Assembly: GCA_028281535.1 (NCBI GenBank)
Contig: JANQJS010000003.1
Span: 124,001-188,000 of the forward strand
From: Sedimentisphaerales bacterium
GTDB taxonomy: Bacteria > Planctomycetota > Phycisphaerae > Sedimentisphaerales > SM23-30
Length of the DNA stretch: 64,000 nucleotides
Reading direction: 5' to 3'
The notes beneath the pieces are model-generated. The model was not told the origin of the DNA. It searched no databases and was given only the letters and a program-made list of their open reading frames with translations. This document shows positions 17,330-51,985 of the stretch, piece by piece. A program made the translations under genes and the position numbers. How positions within the stretch are numbered: position 1 is the stretch's first letter; each line of letters starts with the position of its first letter.

Positions 17330-20185
17330 ATGATAACCAACCCTCGTTCATTACTGCGATTTTGTATTGCCTTTTTGTTTTGTGCGTTGAGCGTTCAAAT
17401 GGCTTATGCGGCGTTAGAGCCCAGCGAAGATTTCGGCGCTTATTATACTAAGCTGGATACCGGAGCCGATTTTGAAAGGATTTATCGTGCCGGAAAATTT
17501 GTCGATATCATCGTTGAATTGGGTGAAGACAATGGCAAGCTTGTATTCTGGTGTGGCACGAGTTTCTTGCCATACTGGGAAACTCCAGAAGGAAAATGGT
17601 CTTTGGATGAACTCGTTCCACGAAAAGGTGACGGTCCTAAAGAGCGTCCTGATGATGTGAACTCTTTTTCGGTTGTTAAAATTATTGAAAGCTCTGAAGA
17701 ACAGGTCGTTGTTCACTGGCGTTATTTGCCCGTGTTTGGTGCAGGTAATCCAAAAACAGGTGTATCTGCAACAAAATTTGTGGACGAATATTTTTATGTC
17801 AAGCCGGATGGTAGCGTGTTACGTACGGTTAAAAAGGGGACAGAAAAAGTTCTTGATTGGGTTGATGAAGATAATTTTTCAAGTTACCGTTTTAACTTAA
17901 AGAAAAACGGTATTTCAAAAGCCTCTGTCAAGATTGGAAAACCTTCAGGTAGCGATAAGAAAGTCAGTGGTAGTGTTGTGGTTTCAAAAGTGGCCGCCAA
18001 GCCAGTTGCCTGGTGGACATTTGATGAAGGCCAGGGAGAGCAGGCGAGCGAAAGTCTCAGTGGGAAATCACAAACCATTACCGGTAACAAGAGCCTTTGG
18101 CGTAAAGGTGTTTCCGGGACATCGCTGCAGTTTGATGGTTATAATACGAAGATTGAAGTGCCTGCCAGTCAAGCTCCAAAGATTTCATCAGCGATTACCT
18201 TGGAAGGTTGGGTCGCTTTAGGGGCTTATCCATGGAACTGGACACCCATCGTTCAGCAGATGAAAGATGTGCCTGAAGAAATTGATACAACGCAAGGGCA
18301 AAGTGGTGCGTTAACGGGAGAAGATGGCCGCGAAGCCTATGAAGAATCAGTAGAGAGTAGTCCTTTCAATGATTATTTTGTGAAATATAAATATGAAGAT
18401 GACTATGGCTATTTTTTAGGAATCAATGGTGATGGCAACCCTGGTTTGAAGTTGCGTGTGGATGGTAAGTGGCAGGAGTTAACCGGTAAGAAAGTACTTG
18501 AGCGTCGTCAGTGGTATCATTTGGCGGGAACCTATGACAAAAAAACAGGTACGATGTCTGTTTATGTCGATGGTGAATTGGTTGGACAAAAAACCATCGC
18601 TAAAGGGAATATCGAGCTATCGAGTAAGCCTCTTAAAATTGGTCAGGGTAAAGAGCGTCGTCAGATCAATCCGGTTCGTGCCAATACTTTTCCCGGGCAA
18701 TTTTCTGTCGATGGTTTATTGGATGAAGTACGAATTTACGATGTCGCATTAACAGCTAATCAAGTTGCCTCCAATTTCAAAGCGTATGACAAAAATACTC
18801 CTATTGAAATGGATCAGCGTGTATTGCCTAAAGGACGTAATTCAGGTGAATTTGGTGCTTACTATACGCACTTGAGTTACTATGATGTTTGGGATAATCT
18901 CTGGCGTTTTGGTGAACATCCTGATGTGGTCGTTGAGTTTGATGAGTCACCAGCGAAGTTTGTTTTCTGGCGTGGTGTGAGTTACATTCCTATGTTGGTC
19001 AATGATTTGGCTCAATGGTACAGTAACGAATTTAATGAAACCTGGAGTACTTCAGGTGGTGCCGGTTGCCAGGAGCCGATGTCAGATAAGCAAAGTTATC
19101 ATAACCATGCGAAGATTATTGAAAATACGCCAGCTCGTACCGTTGTTCAATGGCGTTTTCCATTGGTTGATGTGCAGCACATCATGGCGAACTTCGATGA
19201 CAATACTGGTTGGTCTGACTGGAGTGAATGGACTTATTACATTTATCCTGATGGTGTTGGTTGTAAATACTTGCAACTCTTTACGCATGGGTTCCGTAAT
19301 CACGAATGGCAGGAATCGATGGCGATCTTTGGTCCTGACCAGCATCCTGAGCAGATCATTGAGAAAAAGGGTGCTGTGACGATGATTAATCTGGAAGGCG
19401 AATCAGAAAGTTATGACTGGCTTAAGCTACCTCCGAACAGTGTTGAAGAGCCTGCGGGTGCTTGTATTCAGCATATTAACTATACGGGTGAGTATGATCC
19501 TGTGACCATTTCGGATCCATTCTTATGGAATGGTGTCTATGGCGGTGAGTTGACCTCATATTCTGTGTTTCCAACTTGGAACCACTGGCCTGTCGCTCAG
19601 CTTCCTTCCGATGGTCGTTATGCGAACTTTCCTGATCGTACATCGCATAGTTCACTGACGCATTTGTTTCCGCAATTTTATGAAGATGTTGAAACGGGTC
19701 CCAAGCCATATTATTCTAAAATATTCTTAGAGGGTATGCTTAAAACTACGCAGGCTGAATTGATTGGTCTGGCCAAGTCCTGGCAGTATGCACCAAAGAT
19801 TTCAAATAATATGGTCGAGACCATCCAAAGTGTTGGTTACGATCGTGCGCAGCGTGCTTATATCCTTAAAGTGATGCGTGAAGTTGAAGAAGAAGGCAAT
19901 GATGACGACGACGAAGAAGACGATGAGGAGGATGAAGAAGACGAAGAAGGTCCTGGCATGGCCGCTGGATTCAGAATCAATGCCAGTAAGTCTTATCCTT
20001 TTGTTAATGGTTGTTTTGTTATTCGAAGCTACAATGATAAAACGCCTCTGGCCGCCTTTATTGATGGCAAGCCCGTGAAGACGCGTCAGGGTGATACCCG
20101 CAATACCGATGGTCAATGGGATAAAGTGATTTGGGTCGAAGCGAAGATGAACAAACCATTTGTTCTTACCTTTGAGCCTGAATAA
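17330..20185 (+). CDS. Giant secreted LamG-domain protein, paralogue A
   Basis: The 951-residue protein starts after a strong AAGGAG site. A signal peptide (about 1-27, ending AYA) is followed by module 1 (about 34-190: FGAYYTKLDTGADF ... VVHWRYLP) and a LamG/concanavalin-like domain (about 224-500, beginning AWWTFDEGQG and containing RRQWYHLAGTYDKKTG and VDGLLDEVRIYD). A second copy of the module (about 505-690: FGAYYTHLSYYDVWDNLWR ... TVVQWRFP), an Asp/Glu tract (about 852-875) and a C-terminal beta domain ending TFEPE complete it. LamG domains usually bind glycans or proteins; the repeated module is unknown to me. Its nearest relative is the next gene; both have strong terminators and are probably transcribed separately. 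No anchor or sorting signal is seen. Confidence 0.85.
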   Translation: MITNPRSLLRFCIAFLFCALSVQMAYAALEPSEDFGAYYTKLDTGADFERIYRAGKFVDIIVELGEDNGKLVFWCGTSFLPYWETPEGKWSLDELVPRKGDGPKERPDDVNSFSVVKIIESSEEQVVVHWRYLPVFGAGNPKTGVSATKFVDEYFYVKPDGSVLRTVKKGTEKVLDWVDEDNFSSYRFNLKKNGISKASVKIGKPSGSDKKVSGSVVVSKVAAKPVAWWTFDEGQGEQASESLSGKSQTITGNKSLWRKGVSGTSLQFDGYNTKIEVPASQAPKISSAITLEGWVALGAYPWNWTPIVQQMKDVPEEIDTTQGQSGALTGEDGREAYEESVESSPFNDYFVKYKYEDDYGYFLGINGDGNPGLKLRVDGKWQELTGKKVLERRQWYHLAGTYDKKTGTMSVYVDGELVGQKTIAKGNIELSSKPLKIGQGKERRQINPVRANTFPGQFSVDGLLDEVRIYDVALTANQVASNFKAYDKNTPIEMDQRVLPKGRNSGEFGAYYTHLSYYDVWDNLWRFGEHPDVVVEFDESPAKFVFWRGVSYIPMLVNDLAQWYSNEFNETWSTSGGAGCQEPMSDKQSYHNHAKIIENTPARTVVQWRFPLVDVQHIMANFDDNTGWSDWSEWTYYIYPDGVGCKYLQLFTHGFRNHEWQESMAIFGPDQHPEQIIEKKGAVTMINLEGESESYDWLKLPPNSVEEPAGACIQHINYTGEYDPVTISDPFLWNGVYGGELTSYSVFPTWNHWPVAQLPSDGRYANFPDRTSHSSLTHLFPQFYEDVETGPKPYYSKIFLEGMLKTTQAELIGLAKSWQYAPKISNNMVETIQSVGYDRAQRAYILKVMREVEEEGNDDDDEEDDEEDEEDEEGPGMAAGFRINASKSYPFVNGCFVIRSYNDKTPLAAFIDGKPVKTRQGDTRNTDGQWDKVIWVEAKMNKPFVLTFEPE

Positions 20186-20638: not shown

Positions 20639-23518
20639 ATGATGCCCCTTTCCCGTTTTACCCACCGTTTGATTCTTATGATGGTCTGTTCGCTATCAGG
20701 TATTCAATTAACGCATGCGGCGTTAACGCCCTGTGAAGATTTTGGTGCTTATTATACCAAGTTAGATACTGGTGCTGATTTTGAAAAATATTATCGTGCC
20801 GGAGAGTTCACTGATGTCGTTGTCGATATGGGCAAAGACAATGGGCAGCTCATTTTCTGGCGGGGGACCAGTTATCTTCCGATGTGGAAAACGGCAAAAG
20901 GAGAATGGATGCTGGATGAACTGATTAAACGAAAAGGTGATGGTCCAAAAAAGCGTCCCGATAAAGTGAATCTGTTTTCGGTTGTCAAAATTATTGAAAG
21001 CAATAATGAGCAAGTTGTGATTCACTGGCGTTACTTGCCAGAGTTTGGTGATGGCAATCCCAAAACGGGTGTTGCTTCGACGAAATTTGTGGATGAATAT
21101 TTTTATATTCAACCAGATGGCAGTATCAAACGTACATTGAAAAAAGGTACGACCAAGCTTTTAGATTGGGTCGACCCTGATAACATTTCAGTGTATGAGT
21201 TTAATCTAAAACTCAACGGCATTTCTAAAGCTTCAGTTAAAAAGGGCAAGGCGTCAGGCAAAGATAAAAAAGTAGAAGGCAATGCGATTGTTTCTAAAGT
21301 TGCTATTGATCCTGTGGCTTGGTGGAAATTTGATGAAGGCATGGGCGACATGGCAAAAGAAAGTGTCAAAGGCCAAAAAAGAGATATTGCTGGTGGCAAA
21401 AGCCTCTGGCGTCAAGGTGTCTCTGGTACGGCTTTGCAGTTTGATGGTTACAAAACCAAAATCGAACTGCCTGCCAAACATGCTCCCAAAATTAAATCGG
21501 CGATTACCCTGGAAGGTTGGGCTGTATTAGGTTCTTATCCTTGGAACTGGGTTCCGATTGTTCAGCAATCGACCGATGTGCCAGAAGAAATCGAACAATT
21601 TCGTCGTGAACTAGAGGAAGGTGAAGATCCAGATGACGCGTATAGCGTTCAATATAAATATGAAGATGATCATGGTTACTTCTTGGGTATCAATGGCGAT
21701 GGCTTTGCTGGTATGAAAATTCGTGTAGGCGGCAAATGGGAAGAACTCACGGCCAACACCTTTATGGAACGTCGTCAGTGGTATCATATCGTTGGTACCT
21801 ATGATAAGAAGACGGGTAAGATGTCGATCTATGTTGATGGTCAGTTGTCTGGGCAAAAGACTGTTGCAAAAACCAATATCGAAACCGCTTCTGATAAGCC
21901 ATTAAAAATTGGTCAAGGTAAAATGCGTCGCCAGATTAATCCTGTGCGAGAAAATACCTTTCCTGGTCAATATTCCTTTGATGGTTTGATTGACGAAGTG
22001 CGTATTTATGATTCTGCTTTATCTGATGGTCAGGTGGCGGCCAATTATAGTGCTTATCGTAAAATCGCCGTGGATATGGACAAACGTGTTTTGCCTGCTG
22101 GTAAAAATACGGGTGAGTTTGGCGCTTACTATACCCATTTGAAATTCTATGATGTGTGGGATAACCTCTGGCGTTTTGGTGATCATCCAGACGTGGTGGT
22201 TGAGTTTGCCGATTCGCCAGCGAAGTTTGTTTTCTGGCGTGGTGTAAGTTTCATTACGATGATGGTAAACGACAAAGCACAATGGTACAGCAACGAATTT
22301 AATGAAACCTGGGAAACCTCAGGCGGTGCTGGTTGCCAGGAACCGATGTCAGATAAACAGAGTTGGCATAATCATGCTAAGATTATTGAAAACACCCCAG
22401 CTCGCAGTGTTGTGCAATGGCGTTTTCCATTGGTTGATGTTCAACATGTGATGGCCAATTACGATGAAGAATCTGGTTGGTGTGACTGGAGTGAATGGAC
22501 TTATTACATTTATCCAGATGGCGTTGCCGCGAAATATATGCAGCTCTTTACTCATGGCAATCGCAATCACGAATGGCAGGAATCGATGGCGATCTTTGGT
22601 CCTGACCAGCATCCTGAACAAATCATTGAAACCAAAGGTGCGGTGACGATGGTGACTTTGGATGGCGAATATAAAACCTACGATTGGGTCAATGGTCCGC
22701 CACCTTCTGTTGATGAACCAGCTGGTGCATGTATTCAGTACATTAACTATACAGGAGAATATGATCCTGTGACAATTACCGATCCATTTGAAGGCACCAA
22801 TGTGTATGGTGGTGAATTAACCCCTTATGCCGTTTTTCCAACCTGGAACCATTGGCCTGTTGCTCAACTGCCTTCCGATGGTCGTTATGCCAGCTTCCCT
22901 GACCGTACATCACACAGTTCTTTGACCCACGTCTATCCTCCAATTTATGAATATGTGGTCGATGATCCTGTACCTTTCTATTCTAAAATTATGCTCGAAG
23001 GGATGCTCAAAACCAAGCCACTTGAATTGGTGGATCTGGCCAAGTCCTGGCAGTATGCTCCGAAGATTTCTAATCTTACTGGATTCCAGGGAATTGGTTA
23101 TGATCGTGCTCAACGTGCTTATATCTTCAAAGTAATGAAGCCGGAAGAAGATGGCGATGAGTTGGCCCGAGCCGAATTGGAAGAAGAAGGCGAAGATGAA
23201 GGTGAAGATGAGGGCGATGAGGAGGAAGAACATGATGAACAAGGTGACGACGACGAAGGTGAGGAAGAAGACGAGGAGGAGGAAGACTCTCAAGCCCTTG
23301 GTTTCCGTGTGAATGCCAGCAAAACCTTTCCGTTTGTAAATGGTTGTTTTGTCTTGAAAGATTGGAACAACAAAGATGATGTGAGCATTTGGGTGGATGA
23401 TACCCTTGTCGATATCAAACAAGGTAACGTGCGTAATACCCGTGGCCAATGGGATAAACTCATCTGGCTTGAAAAAACAGCCTCCAAACCATTTACGGTT
23501 ACGTTTGAACTTCAATAA
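20639..23518 (+). CDS. Giant secreted LamG-domain protein, paralogue B
   Basis: The 959-residue protein has the same order as paralogue A: signal peptide (about 1-28), module 1 (about 35-190), LamG (about 220-485, beginning AWWKFDEGMG), module 2 (about 491-680), a hyperacidic tract and a C-terminal beta domain. The acidic tract (about residues 835-884) is roughly twice as long as in A and almost only Asp, Glu and Gly. Long segments are nearly identical to A (for example AIFGPDQHPEQIIE and WNHWPVAQLPSDGRYA), so the pair arose by tandem duplication. A sharp terminator follows. The likely location is the cell surface or medium; the ligand is unknown. Confidence 0.85.
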   Translation: MMPLSRFTHRLILMMVCSLSGIQLTHAALTPCEDFGAYYTKLDTGADFEKYYRAGEFTDVVVDMGKDNGQLIFWRGTSYLPMWKTAKGEWMLDELIKRKGDGPKKRPDKVNLFSVVKIIESNNEQVVIHWRYLPEFGDGNPKTGVASTKFVDEYFYIQPDGSIKRTLKKGTTKLLDWVDPDNISVYEFNLKLNGISKASVKKGKASGKDKKVEGNAIVSKVAIDPVAWWKFDEGMGDMAKESVKGQKRDIAGGKSLWRQGVSGTALQFDGYKTKIELPAKHAPKIKSAITLEGWAVLGSYPWNWVPIVQQSTDVPEEIEQFRRELEEGEDPDDAYSVQYKYEDDHGYFLGINGDGFAGMKIRVGGKWEELTANTFMERRQWYHIVGTYDKKTGKMSIYVDGQLSGQKTVAKTNIETASDKPLKIGQGKMRRQINPVRENTFPGQYSFDGLIDEVRIYDSALSDGQVAANYSAYRKIAVDMDKRVLPAGKNTGEFGAYYTHLKFYDVWDNLWRFGDHPDVVVEFADSPAKFVFWRGVSFITMMVNDKAQWYSNEFNETWETSGGAGCQEPMSDKQSWHNHAKIIENTPARSVVQWRFPLVDVQHVMANYDEESGWCDWSEWTYYIYPDGVAAKYMQLFTHGNRNHEWQESMAIFGPDQHPEQIIETKGAVTMVTLDGEYKTYDWVNGPPPSVDEPAGACIQYINYTGEYDPVTITDPFEGTNVYGGELTPYAVFPTWNHWPVAQLPSDGRYASFPDRTSHSSLTHVYPPIYEYVVDDPVPFYSKIMLEGMLKTKPLELVDLAKSWQYAPKISNLTGFQGIGYDRAQRAYIFKVMKPEEDGDELARAELEEEGEDEGEDEGDEEEEHDEQGDDDEGEEEDEEEEDSQALGFRVNASKTFPFVNGCFVLKDWNNKDDVSIWVDDTLVDIKQGNVRNTRGQWDKLIWLEKTASKPFTVTFELQ

Positions 23519-38500: not shown

Positions 38501-41305
38501 TTAACGCGAGATGCTGATGTCTAATGCTTTGGTCGCTGATTTTTTCACCCAGATGACCAGCATTTGTTTGCCCTCAGTATCGCGTGTAACACCTTGTCGG
38601 AAATCTGGGCCAGGTTTGATTTTCTTGTCATTGATTTTCAGTTTGGCAAGGCTATCGCTGTTCCAATTTTTGACGACAAAGCTAGGATTCACAACAGGAG
38701 ATTTCTTAGAAGCTTTTAAGCTAAAGGATAACTTTCCTTTTTTAGTAGTAAATTCAAATGCTCTTTGAGATTTATTATAACCAAGAAATTTTCCGCCATC
38801 AACATCTTTGGCTTTTGCTGGGAAGTTCCAGGACTTCGCTAGAGGTAGTAAGGCTTTAACGTCGGTATTGTTGGTGAAGCCATACATACCCATATTGCCA
38901 TGCTGGACAACATTATCAGCAGCTGCCAGTGCAACGTGGTTGACACGGTCGTAGTCAACCGCAAAGCGTCCATCAGATGGGATTTGACTAACAGGCCAGT
39001 GATTCCATGGGCCAGCAAATGGATCTTCAGCGTGTGTATGCTTAGATTGTTCAACATGTCCCCAAGGTGTAATGTAAGTACCTTTTTGGAAGATACCAAA
39101 CACTTTATAGTCAGATTTGAAATTGATGAGTTCAATGCAAGCGTCTTTTAATTCATTGGTAGGGACTTTGTTGGGAAGTTCCCACTGAAGAGGTAATACT
39201 TTTCCATCGAGGTTTGCAAGTGTGATAGCTTGCAAATCAATTTGGTCCAGTGGTTTTACATCAGGTTGGCTAAAGAATTGAATGTCCTGCCATCCTGCTT
39301 CACCTGCATGGTATGTTACAAAGCGAATTCCCAATGAGTCAGGGTAGAAGGTATGATATTCATCTGCCCATGCAAGTGGCTCTGGGAAAAGATAGTTAAC
39401 ATCGTTGGAGGGGTATCGCCAGTGAATGACAACGCGAGCAGGAGTATTTTCAATGATTTCTACAAGACCATATCGCATATCTTTGTCTGCCATGTGTTCA
39501 GAGCAACCATGTTTACCCCATACTTCACAACTTTGATCTGCCATCCAGATGTTATTGTCTGTAACCCAACCTGGACCGTAGTTACCACCACGCCAGTAAA
39601 CCACTTTTGCTGGAGAAGAATCAAATTGAATGACCACATCTGAGTAGTCGTCACTTCGCCACATATTATCCCAAAGATCATGATATTTTAGTTTGGTATA
39701 GTATGCGCCAAATGCTTTAGCCGGTTTGCCATCCACTTCACCAGGCAAAACACGTTTTTCAATATCTGGATTTTGAATAATTTTATCGCTAGGTTTGTTT
39801 TTACTGTAGTTTTGTTTAATCTGTTCTTTGCTTAATGCGCTGCTATAGACTTTTACTTCATCAATTAAGCCTTCAATACCATATATCGTAGGAAGGTGTT
39901 CCAATGGAGATCGCACTGGATCTGAGGGGTAAGCCATTTGATTATTGATACCAACCAGTAGCGGAGTGCCTGCAGGGACCTCAACATTTCCTGATACCGA
40001 AATGGTTTCAATTTCTTCGCCATTGACGAACAAGCTCATAGAGCCATTGCCATAGCTTCCTGCCAGATGAACCCATTTATTACGAGGTAATTTTTCTTTT
40101 GATTTTAAGATATAGTTATTAACGACAAACAGAGCGTGATTGTAAGGGCCGACACCCAGGTAGTAACCTTTTCCAGGTTTTCTTTCTTCTGCTTTACGCT
40201 TGAAGTCTGCCAAGCCACCAGTTTCAACTGGACCAGGATCCATGATGGAGTGGTGGACAATCGGAGCCCAGTTCCAAGGATTCGCACCCAGAGTTACCCA
40301 GCTTTCAACTGAAACAGCATCTGTCACTTTAGGGGCTGCACTGGCAGGGACAGAGATTTTAGTATAATAACCATCAAATCCCAGGGCAGTACCTGATGCC
40401 CCTGATTTCCAAGCCGCTTTATGGCCTTGGATCGGGTAGCGTTGCTTAGACTGATTTTCTTTGGTCATTTCACTAGCAGCATCATCAAATTTGAACCATA
40501 AATCAGGATTGATGACGTTATATGTTTTCGTAGGGTTTTGCGGGGCAGAAGCTGTCGCATGGCGTTCTAGGCTTTCGGTATGAGATAATACTTTTATTCC
40601 ATCGGTATCGAGCTTGAGCCATTGGGTTTTAGTTTTCCAGACGTCTGTTTTTCCCGTAGCTTGGCGAACTTCGCGTTTAACGCGATGGTCAGGTGTAATG
40701 GTAAAAAATTCATGTGCAACACCATCAAAGTCTGGATTATCAAAATCTGGAACATATCGCCAGTGGATCACGATTTCATCAGAGTTGTTTTTGATGATAC
40801 GGGAATAGCTATAAAGGCAACCAATATCTTTGTCGCGTTTATGGCTAATGATACCTTGTTCAGGGTGATCATGTTTCACTTCATCTACCAACCATGAGCC
40901 TTTAGGTGTTACCCATTTAGGTTCGTAACTGGTTTCACGTGAAAAGACCAGTTGATGACCTTTAGAAAGATTGACAATGATATCAGCATATTTTCCAGTG
41001 ATTTTTCCTGATCTTTCACCACCTTCTTCATCGTCATCCTCATCTTCATCATCATACTCTTCATCCTCTCCATCTTCTTCTTCGTCCTCATCTTCTCCTT
41101 CTTCCTCTTCTCCATCAAGTGGGATTCCGGTGTAATCGAACTCATCAGTTTGAGGTAAGTAGCTTAACATTTCATCGACTGGAATATCATAATTCAAGCG
41201 AGTGTAGTAAGCGTAAAAATCTGAGGATGCCATGACATTGCCTGTGACAAACATCAAGGCAAGAATAATTACTAGATATGAAATGGCTGGACGGTTTTTT
41301 TCCAT
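38501..41305 (-). CDS. Giant secreted LamG-domain protein, paralogue C
   Basis: The 934-residue protein has a signal peptide (about 1-26) and the common module 1 (from FYAYYTRLNYD near residue 30). Here the hyperacidic tract (about 62-95) is inserted inside module 1, not near the C-terminus. The LamG domain lies at about 265-515 (WFKFDDAASEM ... NKWVHLAGSYGNGS ... IEGLIDEVKVYSS). Module 2 starts near 531 (FGAYYTKLKYHDLWDNMWR), and the C-terminal beta domain ends at KALDISISR. It is more distant from A and B than these are from each other. It is transcribed on its own or after paralogue D, 278 bp upstream, from which it is separated by a terminator. Confidence 0.85.
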   Translation of the reverse strand: MEKNRPAISYLVIILALMFVTGNVMASSDFYAYYTRLNYDIPVDEMLSYLPQTDEFDYTGIPLDGEEEEGEDEDEEEDGEDEEYDDEDEDDDEEGGERSGKITGKYADIIVNLSKGHQLVFSRETSYEPKWVTPKGSWLVDEVKHDHPEQGIISHKRDKDIGCLYSYSRIIKNNSDEIVIHWRYVPDFDNPDFDGVAHEFFTITPDHRVKREVRQATGKTDVWKTKTQWLKLDTDGIKVLSHTESLERHATASAPQNPTKTYNVINPDLWFKFDDAASEMTKENQSKQRYPIQGHKAAWKSGASGTALGFDGYYTKISVPASAAPKVTDAVSVESWVTLGANPWNWAPIVHHSIMDPGPVETGGLADFKRKAEERKPGKGYYLGVGPYNHALFVVNNYILKSKEKLPRNKWVHLAGSYGNGSMSLFVNGEEIETISVSGNVEVPAGTPLLVGINNQMAYPSDPVRSPLEHLPTIYGIEGLIDEVKVYSSALSKEQIKQNYSKNKPSDKIIQNPDIEKRVLPGEVDGKPAKAFGAYYTKLKYHDLWDNMWRSDDYSDVVIQFDSSPAKVVYWRGGNYGPGWVTDNNIWMADQSCEVWGKHGCSEHMADKDMRYGLVEIIENTPARVVIHWRYPSNDVNYLFPEPLAWADEYHTFYPDSLGIRFVTYHAGEAGWQDIQFFSQPDVKPLDQIDLQAITLANLDGKVLPLQWELPNKVPTNELKDACIELINFKSDYKVFGIFQKGTYITPWGHVEQSKHTHAEDPFAGPWNHWPVSQIPSDGRFAVDYDRVNHVALAAADNVVQHGNMGMYGFTNNTDVKALLPLAKSWNFPAKAKDVDGGKFLGYNKSQRAFEFTTKKGKLSFSLKASKKSPVVNPSFVVKNWNSDSLAKLKINDKKIKPGPDFRQGVTRDTEGKQMLVIWVKKSATKALDISISR

Positions 41306-41583: not shown

Positions 41584-44500
41584 TTATTTAGAAATCACGA
41601 TGTTAGTGGTTTTTGTTGCTTCAAATTTAATCCAGATCACTTTATTTAAAGTTCCATCGGTCGCAATAGTTACCCCTTGGCGGAAGTCCGTTCCGGATTC
41701 AATTGTTTGACCATTAATTGTCATTTTTGCTAAAACATCATCATGCCATCCCTGGATTAAGACACATGGATTCAGTAATGGATTTTCATCAGAAGCGGGC
41801 AATGTAAATTTGATGCTCGAAGTTGGATCCTTTAAAATATAAGCCGCTTGCGATTGATCATAGCCAAGGCTTTTTGCACCACTGATTTTTGTTACTTCAG
41901 GAGCTTGAAGCCAGGATCGTCCTCGTTTGGCTAATTCGCGTGCGGGTTTTGTCGTCATGCCATTTAAATAAAGTTTAACACCTAAATTTTCATCTAGATG
42001 AAAAAATTCATTTACTGTATCTAACCAGAACATGGACGTTGATGTTGTTCTGTCAACAGTATGGGCATGGTGTCCATCTGAAATCACATAGGACATTGGC
42101 CAATGATTGAACCAGGAAAATTTTGAATATTTGGTAAACTCTCTTGGATCATTATACGCTGCTAAGATGAGTTCATCGCTGGGGGGACCAATCACAAATG
42201 GGTCCCAATCAGCTTTCAAATTCATCACAGCAATATTTCGATCTTTAGGTTCTCGCATACCACCGCCATGGTATTCGCCTTGAGGTGGGCCGTCTTTCCA
42301 GGAGTAAGTGTGACTTTCGCCTAGCAAGTTCGCCAATGTCATAGCGTCCCATTCAAGGTTATCTTCAGGACGCTGTTCAGGGCCATTCAAAATAATCCCT
42401 TCATGCCATTCGCGATCTCCAGGTTCTATACTCCAGGCATGCTGGGCACGGACGCTAACGCCATCAGGGTAAATGACATGATATTCATCCGTCCAGTCTC
42501 CCCACTGGCCTGGCTCTTCGACTCCTGCGCTATCGTATTTAACATCAACAAGAGCATATCGCCAATGTAAGACGACCCGAGCTGGCGTATTTTCAATAAT
42601 TCTTACGTAAGAGTGTCTGCTTTCTTTGTCAGACATGGGTTCAGCGCAACCATATTCTGTACCAGATTCAGTAAACTCCTGTGTTGCCCAGATATTATTT
42701 TCTGAGACCCAGTGCGGAATGTAGCTGGTGCCACGCCAAAAGATCAGTTGGACTGGCAATTCATCAAATTGCACGACCAAATCAGAATGATCGCCCACAC
42801 GCCATCGATTGTCCCAAGTATCATAAAATTTCAATTTCGTGTAGTAAGCACCAAATCGTTTTGACTGCAAACCATTACCAGGCAACACACGTTTTTGAAG
42901 ATCTGGATTTTGTCGTCGCAGATCATTAGGCTTATGCTGAGCATAGGTTTTATAGATCTGGTCTGGTCCTAAATACGTGTCATAGATTTTGACTTCATCA
43001 ATTATTCCATCAAAGGCAAATTCAGACGTGTCGGTAAAAAATGGGCGAATAGGCAATGCCGGTTTCATAGGTGTGCCTTTACCGATACGCACGTCAAGTT
43101 GATCAGCAGTTTGATTATTTGCTGCCATGAATAATTCCCGGCCTGAGGTTTCCAGGTCGCCTGCTTTTTGGCCGTTGATGTAAATAGTCATCATGCCTTT
43201 TTTACTTTCATAGGTCGCGGCGACGTGCACCCATTTATTTCTGGGGAGTTTTTCTTTGGAGATCACTTCAAACCAGCCGCCACCAATGGCTGCTTTGAAT
43301 CCGAGGTGACCATAATAATCAATCCCAAAGAAATAGCCATTTTTTCCGGGTATGCTTTGCTGGATGATAGGGCACCAGTTCCAAGGGTAGGCCTTAATCG
43401 CGATCCAGGCTTCCATGGAAAGTTCACCAACGGTCACATCGCGTTTAAATGATTCGTACAGGAATGGAGATTTTTCGACGGGTAGTGAAACCATCGAACT
43501 CCATCCGTTAAATACCAGGCCACTGCCAGAAACCCCTGCCCCCCAAATCGCATTATCACCTTCGATTTTACTAGTGGTGTTGCCAATGATTTCTGTTGTG
43601 ATATCGCCTTGTGTTTCATCAAAGGTCCACCAGGCAATCGGAGGAGTGACAGGTTGAGATTTTTCCTTAAAATGGAGTGTGATTGTATCTTCATGGCTGA
43701 ATTCACCATCTTCTGCTTTTAAGGTTAAGATATAACTGCCAGACCGAGAGAAAGTAACTAGTGTTGTTGGGGATGTTTCATCTTCAAAATCAACATTACC
43801 AGGTCCTTTGCTTTTTGACCATTTGATTTTAAGATCTGAGTTTGGTAGGCCATCATCTTTGACTGAAGCTTGAAGTTCATATTCAATTTCTTCGGAATCA
43901 TTATCTTCAATGATAATGGATTGGTCTTTGCCGGCGTCAACAATAGGAGCTTGATTCACAACTGGTATATCAACGTGTTTAGGTGTAATCGTCACTAAGC
44001 TGTTGTTTCGAATATTTTCACTGATTGAAATAATCAAGTCCGTACCAGCCAGTGTGTGGAGATATCCTGTTTTAATATTTTGAATGGTTCTATCTTTTAT
44101 TGAGATTTTTTCAATGGCATGTTCACCCCAGTTCTTAATTAAGAATGCAGGGTGGGCAAGTCCGTCATTCACCGTAAAGGTTAATGGCTTACCGAATGCT
44201 TTTATGTCTGTATTTATTTTAAAGCATCGTTGAGCGGCATCATAACCAGCAAATGAGTATCCTTTGCTAACTTGTGAAATTCCTCTTTTCTCAGTTGATG
44301 AAATCTCTGACGTCTTGATGCCATTATTATTCAATATTGATGTTGTGACTTTGAGGTTGGATGGGCTTTTCCAGTCGTCTAATTTTGTTGCTCCTGGTCT
44401 AAATGAACGGTTGACAATTCCGCTGGGATAGAAATAAAAGTATTCATCTACATAGTATGTTAATCCTACTTTAGACAAATCAGGAGCATAACGCCAATGG

Positions 44501-44868
44501 ACAACGATACGTGCAGGGGTATTTTCAATTAAGCGTATTTTTGAATATCGATTTTGTTTATCAGGCATGGTTTTACTGCCATCGCCTTTGCGTGGCACCA
44601 TTTCATCAAAAGTAAACCTTCCATCGGGAGTTTCCAGGATGGGCAGATAGCTGGTCCCTCGCCAGAAGTATACTTTTATATTGCTGTTAATTTGCACAAC
44701 CAGCTCAGCATATTTTCCAGCTCGATAATCTTTCTCGAACTCTTCACCGATATCAATCTTGGTATAATATGCCTTAAACGTTTGAGCGATTGAAAGCTGG
44801 CTGTCAAATGTTAGGGGTCCTAAAGATACAATCACCACCATGGCGACAAGATTAGCCAATTTTGTCAT
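41584..44868 (-). CDS. Giant secreted LamG + PKD protein, paralogue D
   Basis: The longest paralogue (1094 aa) has a signal peptide (about 1-28), module 1 (about 30-170) and a first C-terminal-type beta domain (about 215-295: FAGYDAAQRCFKI ... FLIKNWGEHAIEKI). A PKD domain follows (about 308-405: VDAGKDQSI ... GSYILTLKAEDGEFSHEDTI), then LamG (about 410-660), module 2 (about 675-850) and a second C-terminal-type beta domain (about 1005-1094: SLGYDQSQAAYIL ... CVLIQGWHDDVLAKMTI). The first beta domain is absent from A-C, so D shows a duplicated two-domain unit with PKD and LamG between. It has no hyperacidic tract. It is secreted and probably acts outside the cell; the ligand is unknown. Confidence 0.87.
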   Translation of the reverse strand: MTKLANLVAMVVIVSLGPLTFDSQLSIAQTFKAYYTKIDIGEEFEKDYRAGKYAELVVQINSNIKVYFWRGTSYLPILETPDGRFTFDEMVPRKGDGSKTMPDKQNRYSKIRLIENTPARIVVHWRYAPDLSKVGLTYYVDEYFYFYPSGIVNRSFRPGATKLDDWKSPSNLKVTTSILNNNGIKTSEISSTEKRGISQVSKGYSFAGYDAAQRCFKINTDIKAFGKPLTFTVNDGLAHPAFLIKNWGEHAIEKISIKDRTIQNIKTGYLHTLAGTDLIISISENIRNNSLVTITPKHVDIPVVNQAPIVDAGKDQSIIIEDNDSEEIEYELQASVKDDGLPNSDLKIKWSKSKGPGNVDFEDETSPTTLVTFSRSGSYILTLKAEDGEFSHEDTITLHFKEKSQPVTPPIAWWTFDETQGDITTEIIGNTTSKIEGDNAIWGAGVSGSGLVFNGWSSMVSLPVEKSPFLYESFKRDVTVGELSMEAWIAIKAYPWNWCPIIQQSIPGKNGYFFGIDYYGHLGFKAAIGGGWFEVISKEKLPRNKWVHVAATYESKKGMMTIYINGQKAGDLETSGRELFMAANNQTADQLDVRIGKGTPMKPALPIRPFFTDTSEFAFDGIIDEVKIYDTYLGPDQIYKTYAQHKPNDLRRQNPDLQKRVLPGNGLQSKRFGAYYTKLKFYDTWDNRWRVGDHSDLVVQFDELPVQLIFWRGTSYIPHWVSENNIWATQEFTESGTEYGCAEPMSDKESRHSYVRIIENTPARVVLHWRYALVDVKYDSAGVEEPGQWGDWTDEYHVIYPDGVSVRAQHAWSIEPGDREWHEGIILNGPEQRPEDNLEWDAMTLANLLGESHTYSWKDGPPQGEYHGGGMREPKDRNIAVMNLKADWDPFVIGPPSDELILAAYNDPREFTKYSKFSWFNHWPMSYVISDGHHAHTVDRTTSTSMFWLDTVNEFFHLDENLGVKLYLNGMTTKPARELAKRGRSWLQAPEVTKISGAKSLGYDQSQAAYILKDPTSSIKFTLPASDENPLLNPCVLIQGWHDDVLAKMTINGQTIESGTDFRQGVTIATDGTLNKVIWIKFEATKTTNIVISK

Positions 44869-45513: not shown

Positions 45514-46296
45514 CTATTTTACCTGATGTGATTTGATTGTCGTTAAATAGTTAATTAAATCATCGTGAATGCTACCATTGGTGCCCACCGTTTCGTTGGG
45601 AATGTTCGCTTGGCCATTGTCATAGTCAGTAAGCTTGCCACCAGCTTCTTCCAGAATGAGCCAGCCCGCTGAGATGTCGTAAGGTTTTAGGTTTAGTTCC
45701 CAGAAACCTTCCATTCTGCCGCAAGCAACGTAGCAAAGATCGATGGCTGCCGAACCGTAGCGACGTATGCCGCGAATGTTGGGTAAGATTTTTTCGAAGT
45801 AGGGCATGTTGTTGTGGGTAAGATCGCTACGAACACACGCAAACCCTGTAGCTAATACAGAGTCGATCAATTTGTCACGGTTTGAAACACGAATCGGTTT
45901 ATTATTCAGTGTCGCACCACATCCTTTTTGTGCTTCGAATAATTCATCCAATGCGGGTGCATTGACTGCAGCACATTCTAAAACGCCATTTTTTTCATAG
46001 GCAATCGAAACGGAGAAGTAAAGTTGTTGATGAACAAATGACGTTGTACCATCAATCGGATCGATAATCCAGCGATGTTCGTTGCCTTCATGTTGGCCGG
46101 TTTCTTCTGCAAAGATCGCATGGTCAGGATAGGCCTTTTGGATCTCAGAAATTAAAAATGCTTCAACAGCTTCGTCGGCTTCACTGACCAGATCTTTGTC
46201 AGATTTTCGATTCACTTTTAACTCAGAGGCTTGGTTTCGATAATCCATTGCAATCTGCCCGGCTTGCGTGATGATGTTATTTAAAAATTCTTTCAT
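45514..46296 (-). CDS. suhB: Inositol monophosphatase family protein (SuhB-like)
   Basis: The 260-residue protein has the Mg-binding motifs of the family: FAEETG (about 64), WIIDPIDGTTSFVHQ (about 81-95) and the C-terminal YDISAGWLILEEAGG (about 211-225). It dephosphorylates inositol-1-phosphate or related sugar phosphates. It lies 71 bp after the symporter gene on the same strand and may be the last gene of the salvage operon, but the link is uncertain. Confidence 0.9.
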   Translation of the reverse strand: MKEFLNNIITQAGQIAMDYRNQASELKVNRKSDKDLVSEADEAVEAFLISEIQKAYPDHAIFAEETGQHEGNEHRWIIDPIDGTTSFVHQQLYFSVSIAYEKNGVLECAAVNAPALDELFEAQKGCGATLNNKPIRVSNRDKLIDSVLATGFACVRSDLTHNNMPYFEKILPNIRGIRRYGSAAIDLCYVACGRMEGFWELNLKPYDISAGWLILEEAGGKLTDYDNGQANIPNETVGTNGSIHDDLINYLTTIKSHQVK

Positions 46297-46367
46297 TATA
46301 TCTCACTATGAATGCTGATTTAGTTTAACTTGATGTCTCTATACTATAGACCTTATTCTTCATTTCG

Positions 46368-48077
46368 CTACTGTTTTCTCAGTTGATTGACGATATAGGC
46401 AATACAAAAAATGGCGATGGTAGCTAAGATTTTGGCCTGGCCTGGAAAGCCTAATAAGAATTTTCCTAACGCAAACGATGAACTTAAGATCCCCGCGCTG
46501 CCCACAATCCAATTGATAATTTGCCGCAGGCTTTTTGGGGTTTTCCTTTCTTTGGCTAGAGGTTTCCAAAATCCAAAGGGTTTTACTTTGTTATAAAAGT
46601 GTTGAAGATGATCCCGGCTGGTCGGTTTTGTGATGATCGTGATCGATAAAGACGCAATGATGGACGATGCCACCGAAATGAGAAGAATGGTTGGGTAACT
46701 AAAAATCGTTTTGTGATAGAGGATTGGCACCAATATGGATGAGGTTAAAATTGCTACGATTTCACTGTAAGCATTGATACGCCACCAGAACCAGCGCAAA
46801 ATATAGATCCCTCCTATACCACTGCTAAAGGCTAAAAGAAATTTAAATAAATCTGAAATCGAATCAAAGAGCGATGCAATCACACAGCTGATGATCATCA
46901 CGATGACATTGCAAAGTCGAGCAACCCAAACGCAATGTTTTTCGCTGGCGGTTGGATTTAGAAAACGCTTATAAATATCATTCACTAGATAAGCACTCGA
47001 TAGGTTTGTAGTGGAATCGATGGTCGACATAAATGCGGCTAAAAAGGTCATGACCATCAAACCGAGCAGAGGGGAGGGCATGAACTTTTTGATCATCATT
47101 GGGTAAGCAGCTTCCGGATCGCTCACATTTGGGAAAATAAGTATGGAAGCGAGTGCTACCAAAATCCAGGGCCAGGGCCGTAAAACATAGTGAGCGAAGT
47201 TAAACCACAAAATACTTAATAAGGCATGACGCTCATTTTTCGTTGCAGACATTCGTTGGATAAATATACCGCCTCCGTCTGCATTTTTATTGGCCCACCA
47301 TTGAACCAAAATAATTGAAGAGAAGGCGAGTATGGGGCCTTGCCAAAATTCCTTTGAGAAAAATGGTGTCCCTTCAGGTAGGAATGGAAAAAAATGTAAC
47401 GCGGGCTTCGTCAGTTTAGATAGTTCCTGTTGAAATGTTTCCAGTGACCCAAAATGTTTGATAGAGAAAATGGCTAAAATGATGGTGCCAATCATTGCGA
47501 TACAAAATTGAATCAAATCTGTGACAGTAACGCCCCAAAGGCCAGAAAGCGCAGAATAAAAGGTCGCTAGCCCAACGCAAATATAGATTGCCGTCGTTCC
47601 ATCAATATTAAATAAAACATTGAGAAATTTAATCATTGCGACAATGACCCAAGCCATCGTAATGCAATGAACGGGGACGGCCAGGTAGAAAGCTTTAATA
47701 CCGCGAAGCCATGCCGCGGCAGTGCCATCATATCGTAACTCGGTTAATTCCACATCCGTGGTCACTTCTGCACGTCGCCATAGCTTGGAAAATATAAAAA
47801 CGTTAAGTATATGTCCAATCGCAAACCCCCACATTAGCCATAAGCCATTTAGGCCTTCATTACGAATCCAGCCAGTGATAACCAAAGGCGTATCGGAGGC
47901 AAACGTGGTGGCAACCATGGATGTCCCAGCCAGCCACCAGGGAAGATTGCGACCTGATAGGAAAAAGTCATCGCTGCTTTGAGACGCACGACGAGTAAAA
48001 TAGAGACCCACCCCAAGCATAAACAAAAGGTAGGTTGCTATGATGGTCCAGTCCCAAATGGTTAATACATCAAACAT
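46368..48077 (-). CDS. Sodium/solute symporter (SSS family), putative MurNAc-type sugar importer
   Basis: The 569-residue protein has about 13-14 membrane helices and the SSS signature regions: FFLSGRNLPWWLAGTSMVAT (about 37-56), a conserved SDTPL after it, and MTFLAAFMSTIDSTTNLSSAY (about 345-365). The substrate is not directed by sequence. The gene follows murQ by 16 bp in an operon with anmK and a GH20 hexosaminidase, so N-acetylmuramate, anhydro-MurNAc or a disaccharide is a reasonable guess. The C-terminus is a longer helix-rich tail. Confidence 0.9.
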   Translation of the reverse strand: MFDVLTIWDWTIIATYLLFMLGVGLYFTRRASQSSDDFFLSGRNLPWWLAGTSMVATTFASDTPLVITGWIRNEGLNGLWLMWGFAIGHILNVFIFSKLWRRAEVTTDVELTELRYDGTAAAWLRGIKAFYLAVPVHCITMAWVIVAMIKFLNVLFNIDGTTAIYICVGLATFYSALSGLWGVTVTDLIQFCIAMIGTIILAIFSIKHFGSLETFQQELSKLTKPALHFFPFLPEGTPFFSKEFWQGPILAFSSIILVQWWANKNADGGGIFIQRMSATKNERHALLSILWFNFAHYVLRPWPWILVALASILIFPNVSDPEAAYPMMIKKFMPSPLLGLMVMTFLAAFMSTIDSTTNLSSAYLVNDIYKRFLNPTASEKHCVWVARLCNVIVMIISCVIASLFDSISDLFKFLLAFSSGIGGIYILRWFWWRINAYSEIVAILTSSILVPILYHKTIFSYPTILLISVASSIIASLSITIITKPTSRDHLQHFYNKVKPFGFWKPLAKERKTPKSLRQIINWIVGSAGILSSSFALGKFLLGFPGQAKILATIAIFCIAYIVNQLRKQ

Positions 48078-48093
48078 AATATAATTAATTTAC

Positions 48094-48987
48094 TTATTGA
48101 AGTGCTTGTCTTAATGATCCTTTGGCAAGCTTTAGTTCTTTGGTCGCTTTAGGATAATCTAATGCTTTTTTATGCATTAGAATCGCAGTTTTGACTTCAC
48201 CGTTAGATTTTTTTAGCAAGGTTTTCGTTTTTTGTCTTGAGAGTTTAGTGACTTCCATGACGATGCGTTCAGCTCGATCTTCCAGTTTTTTATTCGTCGC
48301 GTTCAAGTCAACCATCAGGTTCTGATAAACTTTTCCAATTTTGATCATCGATGCGGTTGTTAGCGTATTTAAAACCAGTTTTGTCGCGGTGCCCGCTTTC
48401 ATGCGAGTAGATCCTGTTACCACTTCTGGTCCAACGACAGGATTAATCACGACATCGACATTGAGTTTCTTTTTAACTTCTGGTGCACAGGTGATAAATG
48501 CGGTGTTGCATCCCATCGATTTAGCTTTTTTGATAGCGCCATGGACAAAAGGTGTAAGCCCGCATGCCGCAATGCCAATCACAATATCATTCGTGCGAAT
48601 TTTTTTAGTTATGATGTTTTGGCCTTCATCAAAATTATCTTCAGCACCTTCAATGGATCTTACCAGGGCGCGCTTACCACCAGCGATAATACCTTGAACC
48701 ATAGCGGGAGAGCTGCCATAGGTTGGGGGACATTCTGCTGCATCCAAAACGCCTAATCGGCCACTGGTCCCGGCACCAACATAAAAAAGACGTCCTTTGT
48801 TTTGGAATGATTGGACGATGAGATCAATTACATCTGCGATGTTCTTTTTTTCTTTGGTAATCGCTTTTATGACACGTTCGTCTTCGTCATTAATACAGCT
48901 TACCATCTCTAATGTAGAGAGTGTGTCTATGTTTCGACTACGTGGGTTTCGCTTTTCGGTGGTTAATTTGTGACGATCTTTCATCAT
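48094..48987 (-). CDS. murQ: N-acetylmuramic acid 6-phosphate etherase
   Basis: MurQ removes the lactyl ether from MurNAc-6-phosphate, giving GlcNAc-6-phosphate and D-lactate in the cytoplasm. The 297-residue protein has the SIS fold and the family hallmarks: TEKRNPRSRNIDTLSTLEM at the start, VGAGTSGRLGVLDAAECPPT (about 70-89), with the catalytic Glu in AAECPPTYG, and GPEVVTGSTRMKAGTATKL (about 186-204). Its start overlaps the end of anmK by 4 bp. Confidence 0.97.
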   Translation of the reverse strand: MMKDRHKLTTEKRNPRSRNIDTLSTLEMVSCINDEDERVIKAITKEKKNIADVIDLIVQSFQNKGRLFYVGAGTSGRLGVLDAAECPPTYGSSPAMVQGIIAGGKRALVRSIEGAEDNFDEGQNIITKKIRTNDIVIGIAACGLTPFVHGAIKKAKSMGCNTAFITCAPEVKKKLNVDVVINPVVGPEVVTGSTRMKAGTATKLVLNTLTTASMIKIGKVYQNLMVDLNATNKKLEDRAERIVMEVTKLSRQKTKTLLKKSNGEVKTAILMHKKALDYPKATKELKLAKGSLRQALQ

Positions 48988-50150
48988 GAAGGCAATGTGA
49001 TCTTTCCTAAAATTGTATTTCGTTTGGCTCCTGTAACATGGCGACTGTTAACAGGGTTTTGGTAAATAGTTTCTCTGGCTAAAATCGCAAAACAAATTGC
49101 TTCTTTCGCATCGCAGTCGATCCCGAAATCATCACTGGTTAAAAGGTCGATTGGGGCGAGCTTCTTTTTTAGCATGCTTACTAATGTATTATTATGTACA
49201 CCGCCGCCACAAAGTATAACTTCATTTAATTTTTTCGGAAGATAATTCTTATAAGCCATGCAAATCGATTCAGCTGTGAAAGCGGTCAGAGTCGCAATAA
49301 CATCTTCCTGCGATAATTTGTATTTTTTCTTATGCTTCAGAATGTTTTTAAAATAGTTTTCGCTAAAGAGTTCTCGTCCTGTCGATTTTGGAGGTGGGCA
49401 TTTGAAATAAGGGTGTTTCATCAATGATTTCAAAAGAGGTTTATTTAATGAACCCTGGGCAGCTATGTTTCCTTGGTCATCGAAATAGTTTTTGCCTTTT
49501 GTAAAAGTCGTTATTGCCATATCAATGAGCATATTGCCCGGGCCCGTATCAAAACCTATTATTTTATTTTTCCCAGCTGGCAAATATGTTACGTTACCGA
49601 TACCACCAATATTTTGTATCGCTCGATGTTTCACGTTATGGCGAAACAACACGGCATCTGCAAATGGAACCAAAGGAGCACCTTGACCGCCCGTGGCAAG
49701 ATCACCGCTTCGAAAATCATGAATAACACAGGCTCCAAAGCGTTGAGATAGGTAGTCCGCTTGACCGATCTGGTAGGTTGAGCGAATGTGATGTTTGCCA
49801 ATTTTACGTCCATCAGGATTGTGATGGATCGTTTGGCCATGTGATCCGATCAGGTCAATACTTTTAAGTGGGATATTAGATTCTTTACAGAGTCGTTCCA
49901 GAGCCAGCGAATGTAACTGGCCGATAAGTGCATTTAAATCGCTTAAGTCTCCGGCAGACTGTTTTTTGCCACTGGCAGTATCTAAAATCCATTGTCGCAC
50001 ATCATCAGGATAAGGGGTTGTTGAAAAACTCAATGGAGTGATTTTCTTCTTTGAACAATCTACAATGGCAGCATCAATGCCGTCAATAGAGGTGCCCGAC
50101 ATGAGACCTGCTATGCGAAGGGTTTTCTTTTTTGCCAGTGATTCTATCAT
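48984..50150 (-). CDS. anmK: Anhydro-N-acetylmuramic acid kinase
   Basis: AnmK opens the 1,6-anhydro ring and phosphorylates anhydro-MurNAc to MurNAc-6-phosphate, the substrate of the next gene product. The 388-residue protein has GLMSGTSIDGIDAAIVD (about 16-32), IGSHGQTIHHNP (about 98) and FDTGPGNMLIDMAI (about 199), all typical. It starts within the stop of the GH20 gene and ends within the start of murQ (4-bp overlaps), so the three are translationally coupled. Confidence 0.97.
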   Translation of the reverse strand: MIESLAKKKTLRIAGLMSGTSIDGIDAAIVDCSKKKITPLSFSTTPYPDDVRQWILDTASGKKQSAGDLSDLNALIGQLHSLALERLCKESNIPLKSIDLIGSHGQTIHHNPDGRKIGKHHIRSTYQIGQADYLSQRFGACVIHDFRSGDLATGGQGAPLVPFADAVLFRHNVKHRAIQNIGGIGNVTYLPAGKNKIIGFDTGPGNMLIDMAITTFTKGKNYFDDQGNIAAQGSLNKPLLKSLMKHPYFKCPPPKSTGRELFSENYFKNILKHKKKYKLSQEDVIATLTAFTAESICMAYKNYLPKKLNEVILCGGGVHNNTLVSMLKKKLAPIDLLTSDDFGIDCDAKEAICFAILARETIYQNPVNSRHVTGAKRNTILGKITLPS

Positions 50151-51985
50151 AGCTTCTTTAATATTTTTTCAAGCTCTTTATCAGAGCGTTTAAAAAGGTT
50201 TAGATTGTCTTTTAGTCGAGAAGGTCGATTCCGATTGAGCCAGGCTTTTTCAAATTGTTTGGCCATTGAGCGATATTCTTTTTTCAATTGACGACATTCC
50301 GTTTTATCGACGGTGCCTAGCTGTCGCAATGATTTTCCTATAATCGTACGTTTTAACGCTAATCGTTCCATTGCAACGCCACACAATATGTCCTTGAGTG
50401 TCTGCTTATCAAAGCTGGCTAACGGTTTACTCTCAATAGATAGATTTAATGCGTCAAATTTCTTTAGAAGAAGTTGACATTTTTTACTATCTAACAGATC
50501 CATTCGACTTTTTATATTTTCTCTGGTTTTCATAAGCGGTTCAACCAGTGAAAAATAAAGCCCATTCTCATTAAACCATGGGGCGCCATTTTGAGAATAG
50601 GTTGATCCCATCAGTTTTAGTGAATTGTATACTTTGCGATAATCTTTGCCAAATGTTTGCTGGCAATATCTTCGTGTAAACGTAGGCTCATTCACTTTAC
50701 CAGGTTGCCAGCTATGGGCCGCACCATGCGCGAAGCCATGCATGCTAAGTCCAAGAAGGTTGCGATGCCCATTGTCTCCCCAGTCGGTATTTAACACGCC
50801 TTTACTGCCAAATTGCTTACCTGTTTTGGCAAAGTGCCGCACATTATCCATAGCGTTGCCTAAACGGGTGCCATGCGTTTGCCAGCTACTGGTGCCAGGG
50901 CATACCATAAAGTTCAGATTTTTTTCAGCGAGTTGTTTGGTTTCTTGGATGCGTGGGCCATTGGCTTCATATTCCCAGTTTAATAAGACAATATCACGAG
51001 GTAGTTTTTTGATGATCTGAGGGTATTTCAACACAATATCTGCCCACAGGTTCATCCGTTTGCCATAGCTTTCGCAAAGACGATGCAATTTTAGTAAATA
51101 GTCTAAATAGATTTGGCCTGCACCAAGCTTATTTGCTTTTGCCTTGCTTCGTCCTTGACCTAACTCCCAGGGTTCATCACAACAGACATTAAAATCATCT
51201 GCATCGAACAAGGGAATATATTCTTCATATAATGATGAAATAAATTGAATCGATTTTGGGTCTGTTGGACAGAGTGTTGTCCCTCCCGGGTGTCCTCGAA
51301 ATCCAGGCAATTCTGCTAGAGGCTGGTATTCTTTAATCGAAAGAATTTTTTCCATATGTCCCAGGCTGGCCAGGCTGCCTACCAAGCGAATATGATGCTT
51401 TTGGCAATGCTGCTGTAATTCAAGAATGTCAGTAGGGGAAAAAGGATGAGTGCCACGTCCAATGTTTGGGTGTTGCTTAAATTGAAACACATTTTCAATG
51501 TATAGTTGAAGCTCATTGACTTTCCAGTGAGCCAACCGTTCTACCAGATTTTTTAATGTGGTTAGTTTGGGAACTTTTCCACGAGAACAATCCAATGATA
51601 TGCCACGACGATGAAATTGTGGTTTGTCTTTGATCGTACCGCATCGTAATCGTCCAATTTTTATGAGATCAATAAGTGTTTGGATGGCATAATAACAACC
51701 TGCATCGTCACCTGAGATAATAGTGATTTTATTTCTTTCAATTGAAAGTTGATAACTTTCTTTTGTGAATCGATGCTCTCGAAGTAGCCGTAACGTTGCA
51801 CTACCGTATGCATTCCAATGAATGGTTGTTTTTGAATGTTTTTGTTTTAATATTTTAGTGAGCTGGGATAGAGCCATTTCATCCGAGCGATGACAGCTGG
51901 CTAGGACCCATTCTTTTGGCCAACGGAAAAAACCGTTTTGAGGCTCAAATTTCAAGATAGGAATCAATAAATTTTCAATTGGCAT
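50147..51985 (-). CDS. GH20 beta-N-acetylhexosaminidase-like protein
   Basis: The 612-residue protein starts without signal peptide, so it may be cytoplasmic or use another export route. An N-terminal GH20b-type domain (about 1-125: ITIISGDDAGCYYAIQTLIDL) precedes the TIM barrel (about 128-480) with RRGISLDCSRGKVP. The catalytic-type Asp-Glu pair is in FNVCCDEPWELG (about 269-270). The C-terminus is helical. The family removes terminal GlcNAc/GalNAc. As the first gene before anmK and murQ it probably supplies amino sugars from muropeptides or chitin-like glycans. It would replace NagZ (GH3), which is not seen here. Confidence 0.9.
   Translation of the reverse strand: MPIENLLIPILKFEPQNGFFRWPKEWVLASCHRSDEMALSQLTKILKQKHSKTTIHWNAYGSATLRLLREHRFTKESYQLSIERNKITIISGDDAGCYYAIQTLIDLIKIGRLRCGTIKDKPQFHRRGISLDCSRGKVPKLTTLKNLVERLAHWKVNELQLYIENVFQFKQHPNIGRGTHPFSPTDILELQQHCQKHHIRLVGSLASLGHMEKILSIKEYQPLAELPGFRGHPGGTTLCPTDPKSIQFISSLYEEYIPLFDADDFNVCCDEPWELGQGRSKAKANKLGAGQIYLDYLLKLHRLCESYGKRMNLWADIVLKYPQIIKKLPRDIVLLNWEYEANGPRIQETKQLAEKNLNFMVCPGTSSWQTHGTRLGNAMDNVRHFAKTGKQFGSKGVLNTDWGDNGHRNLLGLSMHGFAHGAAHSWQPGKVNEPTFTRRYCQQTFGKDYRKVYNSLKLMGSTYSQNGAPWFNENGLYFSLVEPLMKTRENIKSRMDLLDSKKCQLLLKKFDALNLSIESKPLASFDKQTLKDILCGVAMERLALKRTIIGKSLRQLGTVDKTECRQLKKEYRSMAKQFEKAWLNRNRPSRLKDNLNLFKRSDKELEKILKKL

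Follow-up and report, generated by a model that had tools for sequence, protein, structure and literature searches.

The window, by which we mean the whole stretch of 64,000 nucleotides analysed from the genome of a Sedimentisphaerales bacterium (contig JANQJS010000003.1), carries four paralogous genes that we call A to D. The gene for protein D occupies positions 41584-44868 of the minus strand, and its translation is an unbroken frame of 1094 aa. The protein is a chain of leader, first module (modN), first beta domain (beta1), PKD-like domain, LamG domain, second module (modC), a segment named mid, and second beta domain (beta2), the domain borders having been set with profiles built in this analysis. 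The features of D, followed by its three paralogues, are given here in window coordinates.

44782..44868, minus strand: leader of D, aa 1-29, a hydrophobic N terminus and probable Sec signal peptide, read from the translation
44284..44787, minus strand: module 1 (modN) of D, aa 28-195, homologous to the core's first half but shorter, from profiles and a high-confidence prediction
43969..44280, minus strand: beta domain 1 (beta1) of D, aa 197-300, a predicted beta-sandwich, from profiles and structure prediction
43654..43956, minus strand: PKD-like domain of D, about aa 305-405, PF22352, 24 bits against a cut-off of 27
42922..43650, minus strand: LamG domain of D, aa 407-649, PF13385, 71 bits, E 1e-19
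42325..42837, minus strand: module 2 (modC) of D, aa 678-848, predicted first half of a beta-supersandwich, from profiles and structure model
41917..42324, minus strand: mid segment of D, aa 849-984, predicted second part of the beta-supersandwich, from profiles and structure model
41587..41916, minus strand: beta domain 2 (beta2) of D, aa 985-1094, from profiles and structure model
17330..20185, plus strand: paralogue A, modN-LamG-modC-mid-beta, from profiles
20639..23518, plus strand: paralogue B, modN-LamG-modC-mid-beta, from profiles
38501..41305, minus strand: paralogue C, modN-LamG-modC-mid-beta, its modN carrying an acidic insert, from profiles

The LamG domain of D stands above the curated PF13385 cut-off (71 bits against 27.6), as do those of A, B and C, and the PF22352 match spans aa 329-397, with a score just below its 27-bit cut-off. 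A sequence-only reading of this DNA had held that A, B and C lack the first beta domain, and the profile search agrees; such a domain was not simply overlooked, because the first module and LamG are separated in these proteins by only about 15-20 aa. The C-terminal units of A and B are 75% identical. Long runs of Asp and Glu are inserted in domain loops, namely in modN of C and in the beta domains of A and B, the longest being in B, and similar runs occur in two further family members, L013 and L097.

The same reading had proposed that D arose by duplication of a unit composed of a module and a beta domain, with the PKD and LamG domains placed in between. The repetition is real. The module occurs twice in D (aa 28-195 and aa 678-848); module 1 is recognized by a C-terminal-module profile built without D (E 1.4e-28), and the profile of modN matches that of the core with 99.9% probability and E 1.5e-33. 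Likewise, two beta domains flank the PKD-like and LamG domains, and beta1 is matched by a beta profile, also built without D, at E 1.5e-14, where the best of 1000 shuffles reached 0.042. In the strand lists of two predicted models, strands correspond in order between both modules and between both beta domains. The modules of D are thus duplicates and its beta domains are homologous, so that neither non-aligning copies nor different beta folds are found. What does not stand is the plain two-part unit. Copy 2 contains the mid segment, about 135 aa between module 2 and beta2 with the family motif NHWP...SDGR...DR, and no mid follows module 1. The minimal family protein is module-mid-beta (465-500 aa), and therefore the true unit is module, mid and beta together, about 410 aa, which we call the core.

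Proteins built on this core are numerous. The 4.44 Mb genome from which the window was taken holds 28 family genes, and a scan of named genomes returned 76 family loci from Planctomycetota, Verrucomicrobiota, Bacteroidota, Acidobacteriota, Ignavibacteriota, Calditrichota, Aminicenantota, Hydrogenedentota and others, with relatives of the core in at least seven phyla. Cultured hosts include Flagellimonas algicola and Parabacteroides bouchesdurhonensis. The matches were obtained with a closer subset of sequences, the 25-row alignment being too diverse for search patterns, and a scan of genome contigs with D as the lone query gave nothing. One member, L099, lies in a contig labelled Lokiarchaeota, which may reflect transfer or mis-binning.

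LamG is present in most members. The set of 139 units used for trees comprises 77 LamG-core units, 33 that bear modN and 29 that are core-only, the last class including some units cut by contig ends; core-only genes often adjoin LamG-core genes. Two proteins of the window's own genome (L012 and L016) join modN to the core without LamG and carry about 800 aa more with Ig/fn3-like matches. Another (L033, genome G020), of 1110 aa, carries LamG and two tandem cores, the second mid being matched only in part; here the whole unit was duplicated, so this kind of event happens too. When 102 cores were compared with Pfam, no family matched more than one member and no match was significant, and our literature search found no description of a module-mid-beta family. 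It is a large, unannotated, secreted, bacterial family without a Pfam model. It resembles other modular secreted proteins of the LamG/PKD kind (PF13385, PF22352) in the LamG of most members and the PKD-like domain of D, but differs from them in its defining core, which in the 102 members scanned has no Pfam model.

The module had been taken for a possible new fold, a reading that was dropped once structure comparison placed the core in the beta-supersandwich. The model of the D core (pLDDT 93, pTM 0.93) confidently predicts that module 2 and mid together form a complete beta-supersandwich, the galactose-mutarotase-like fold, over core-model residues 1 to about 311; the module by itself would be half of a known fold. 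The best structural match of module 2 plus mid is the GH174 endo-1,3-fucanase 9k1g (Z 13.5, 244 aa, 3.8 A), followed by PL26 lyase (Z 13.1), PL8 hyaluronate lyase (12.8), GH38 (12.7), OpgG (12.5) and LacZ (12.4), and a second GH174 structure, 8jd7, matches the core at Z 12.4. Altogether 333 chains reach Z >= 8 against the core, the top rows being mostly known supersandwich proteins. In the model of the N-terminal half of D, module 1 plus beta1 (pLDDT 92, pTM 0.90), module 1 residues 1-165 match part of the supersandwich (Z 8.8 to GH38, 8.3 to LacZ) without a mid segment.

The likeness to GH174 (Fun174A and Fun174Sb, 8jd7 and 9k1g) deserves comment. GH174 is a free-standing supersandwich enzyme of the same fold, and its substrate, sulfated fucan, agrees with the fucosidase neighbours of the family described below. 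However, there is no detectable sequence similarity to the core, identity in the structural alignment is 6%, and GH174 leads the other supersandwich proteins by less than 1 Z unit. Since the Z scores of the top matches differ so little, GH174 is a lead and not an assignment, and a common fold does not show a common function. A profile of the 102 cores retrieved no chain among PDB sequences up to E 10, although that database includes 8jd7 and 9k1g, and neither PDB sequences nor Pfam gave a sequence link of the core to any enzyme family. PL26, PL8 and PL15 lyases, OpgG/OpgD, LacZ domain 5, the GH38 C-terminal domain and galactose mutarotase have the same fold as predicted for the core, but no sequence relationship to it, and in most of them the fold is just one part of a bigger, multidomain enzyme. 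The catalytic residues of Fun174A are D119, E120 and E218 (PMC11943901). Among the acidic residues of the core are the invariant E67 and D71 and the neighbouring pair D118-E119.

Conservation within the core is strong. E67, D71 and R88 occur in 102 of 102 cores, E58 in 101, H246 in 97, D118 in 95 and E119 in 93, and the nearly invariant set (core numbering) consists of E58, E67, D71, R88, W93-R94-Y95, D118-E119, Y124-P-D, R131 and H246-W-P. The 23 modN rows keep E58 in three cases, E67 in three and R88 in four, and have lost the H246-W-P motif along with mid; module 1 of D retains R88, and P and K replace E58 and E67. From these alignments it looks as if the core has retained an active or metal site that modN no longer has. 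We had considered module 1 as a second complete enzyme domain, and dropped the idea because it has no mid and because E58, E67 and R88 are seldom preserved among its homologues. Having lost mid and several conserved residues, module 1 is probably non-catalytic, with a binding or structural role.

The same facts can be turned towards a family in which no member is catalytic, all domains being adhesive parts of glycan-binding or surface-layer proteins and the fucosidases lying nearby on account of a common substrate. Binding is the usual task of LamG and PKD domains, the supersandwich of lyases and of LacZ often has an accessory role, and modN is plainly degenerate. We regard this as a substantial possibility, though one to which we give well under an even chance; the near-invariant E, D, R and H of 102 diverse cores, core-only proteins included, resemble an active or metal site, and OpgG/OpgD and GH174 demonstrate that a supersandwich fold can be catalytic alone.

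The layout of D had also been read as ancestral, with A to C derived from it by loss, and this part is not supported by the wider family. A search of 161 genomes of the order with the N-terminal half of D found one other protein of its layout (L116, genome G093, from another family of the order), and the notion that the layout is unique to D was rejected accordingly. L116 shares modN-beta-PKD-LamG with D at 33% identity over 575 aligned positions, and its PKD domain scores 42 bits to PF22352, above the cut-off of 27. The gene (L222:3357-6625, G093:C27) consists of two overlapping frames split inside LamG, so that either the frame is broken in the genome itself or the assembly is wrong there. 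When beta1 plus PKD was searched at the level of class and phylum, almost all matches were unrelated PKD domains. Hence beta1 is found in two of about 45 distinct modN proteins, D and L116, while the rest pass from modN directly to LamG or the core, and the D layout is a rare variant of the family.

Trees of these short domains are weakly resolved. The modN copies form one clade (support 100/99), whose first branch is L012/L016, without beta1 (99/98). The C-terminal unit of D groups with A, B and other modN proteins that have no beta1 (support 70). Beta2 of D falls inside the modN-type beta clade (95/89) and the beta1 domains of both D and L116 fall outside it; a tree constrained to include them is worse by 42 log-likelihood units but is not rejected (p-AU 0.098). 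Basal placements of D in the modN tree are not rejected (p-AU 0.37-0.48), and a constraint that joins D and L116 in modN gave no clear preference. The core subtype of L116 (nearest L097, L106 and L023) differs from that of D (nearest L045 and L082), so the same N-terminal half sits on a different core subtype, which points to shuffling.

Because the deepest modN branch and the kin of D's C-terminal unit have no beta1, beta1 must have been lost three times or more if it was ancestral, where a single gain would do otherwise, and a gain of beta1 and PKD is the simpler history. Retention would mean that a full module-mid-beta unit was duplicated, or that neighbouring genes fused, that copy 1 lost mid and that only D keeps beta1. 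Fusion is easy to imagine, given tandem full cores such as L033 and core-only genes so often beside LamG-core genes; beta1 is highly divergent, as expected of an old copy, and a tree with D and L012/L016 outside all other modN is not rejected (p-AU 0.48). Retention nevertheless has to accommodate these separate losses and the 43 of 45 modN proteins, from several phyla, that are without beta1, as well as the kinship of the D C-terminal unit to A and B, and we think it unlikely. A partial duplication, then insertion of beta1 and PKD and later shuffling of halves is, in our judgement, favoured over retention.

The surroundings of the family genes offer a hint of their role. Among the neighbours of the 76 named loci (n=95) there are seven GH29, four GH95 and eight sulfatase matches. 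In Verrucomicrobiota, the combination of GH29, GH95 and sulfatases is a mark of growth on or other use of fucose polysaccharides that are sulfated (PMC8857213). The window's genome lies outside the 76-locus set and is a fresh test of the neighbourhood. In it, three of five GH29 genes and one of three GH95 genes have a family gene no more than 2.7 kb away (129, 1593, 2516 and 2609 bp from the family match), for which chance gives about 4e-4; the core gene L018 and the GH29 gene that follows it point the same way, 47 bp apart. None of the 14 sulfatases of this genome is close to a family gene, the nearest being 7.1 kb away. In control regions of the genome, the 25 families listed are mostly housekeeping and glycosyltransferase families and include neither fucosidases nor sulfatases. 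Another 13 genomes contain 72 GH29 genes, of which 11 have a family gene at 3 kb or less where 0.9 were expected, nine of the 11 coming from two family-rich genomes. Family genes adjoin GH29 and GH95 alpha-L-fucosidases more often than expected, but glycan genes cluster anyway, which counts against reading GH29 proximity as function. The most likely role that we infer for the family is to cleave or bind fucose-rich glycans outside the cell. Around the paralogue loci of the window's genome (L009-L028), Sigma-70 region 2 accounts for six and FecR for three of 93 neighbours, and some paralogues may accordingly be under ECF/FecR control.

No fucosidase gene lies near D, and its substrate may differ for that reason. 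Upstream of D, on the minus strand at 45514-51985, lie genes for a GH20 enzyme, AnmK (anhydro-MurNAc kinase), a MurQ-like SIS protein, an SSF symporter and an inositol monophosphatase, which look like an amino-sugar salvage cluster; further along, at 52277-54325, is a Matrixin-like (M10) peptidase with Ig-like domains. D and C could accordingly serve amino-sugar glycans, such as cell-wall fragments or glycosaminoglycan-like chains, in place of fucans and together with the GH20-AnmK-MurQ-symporter genes, which share the strand of D. The nearest cluster gene, the inositol monophosphatase, is over 600 bp away from D, and no comparative sign of a conserved association between D and the cluster was found; we consider this reading quite improbable.

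The explanation that we put just above an even chance is a secreted family with a supersandwich core acting on fucose glycans, in which module 1 is degenerate and beta1 and PKD were inserted in D. D would be one of 28 secreted modular proteins built on the core of about 410 aa, a supersandwich of module and mid followed by a small beta-sandwich. The C-terminal core is probably the working part, and its most likely targets would be fucose-containing, often sulfated, glycans, both target and catalysis being suggested by neighbourhood, fold and conservation. LamG would tether the protein or bind glycan. Module 1 may have arisen early, through partial duplication of the core's first half, and then have lost mid and several conserved residues, and the cassette of beta1 and PKD, common to L116, would have entered between module 1 and LamG in D, the order of these events being inferred.

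Among algal polysaccharides, sulfated fucans belong to those degraded most slowly, and few fucanase families are known. More speculatively, and rather doubtful at present, the core could define a new enzyme family that is active on fucans and spread over at least seven bacterial phyla, with 28 copies in one planctomycete, whose paralogues are tuned to different sulfated fucose glycans through shuffling of a degenerate half-supersandwich and of LamG, PKD and beta domains. The family provides concrete candidates for assay, being unannotated and secreted, with enzyme-like conservation, a fold that also occurs in a fucanase, and fucosidase genes as neighbours. It also provides a clean case of a beta-supersandwich that was partly duplicated and cut down to a half-domain. 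The layout of D as such matters less than the family to which it belongs, and the larger result is a widespread and expanded supersandwich family linked to fucose-glycan loci.
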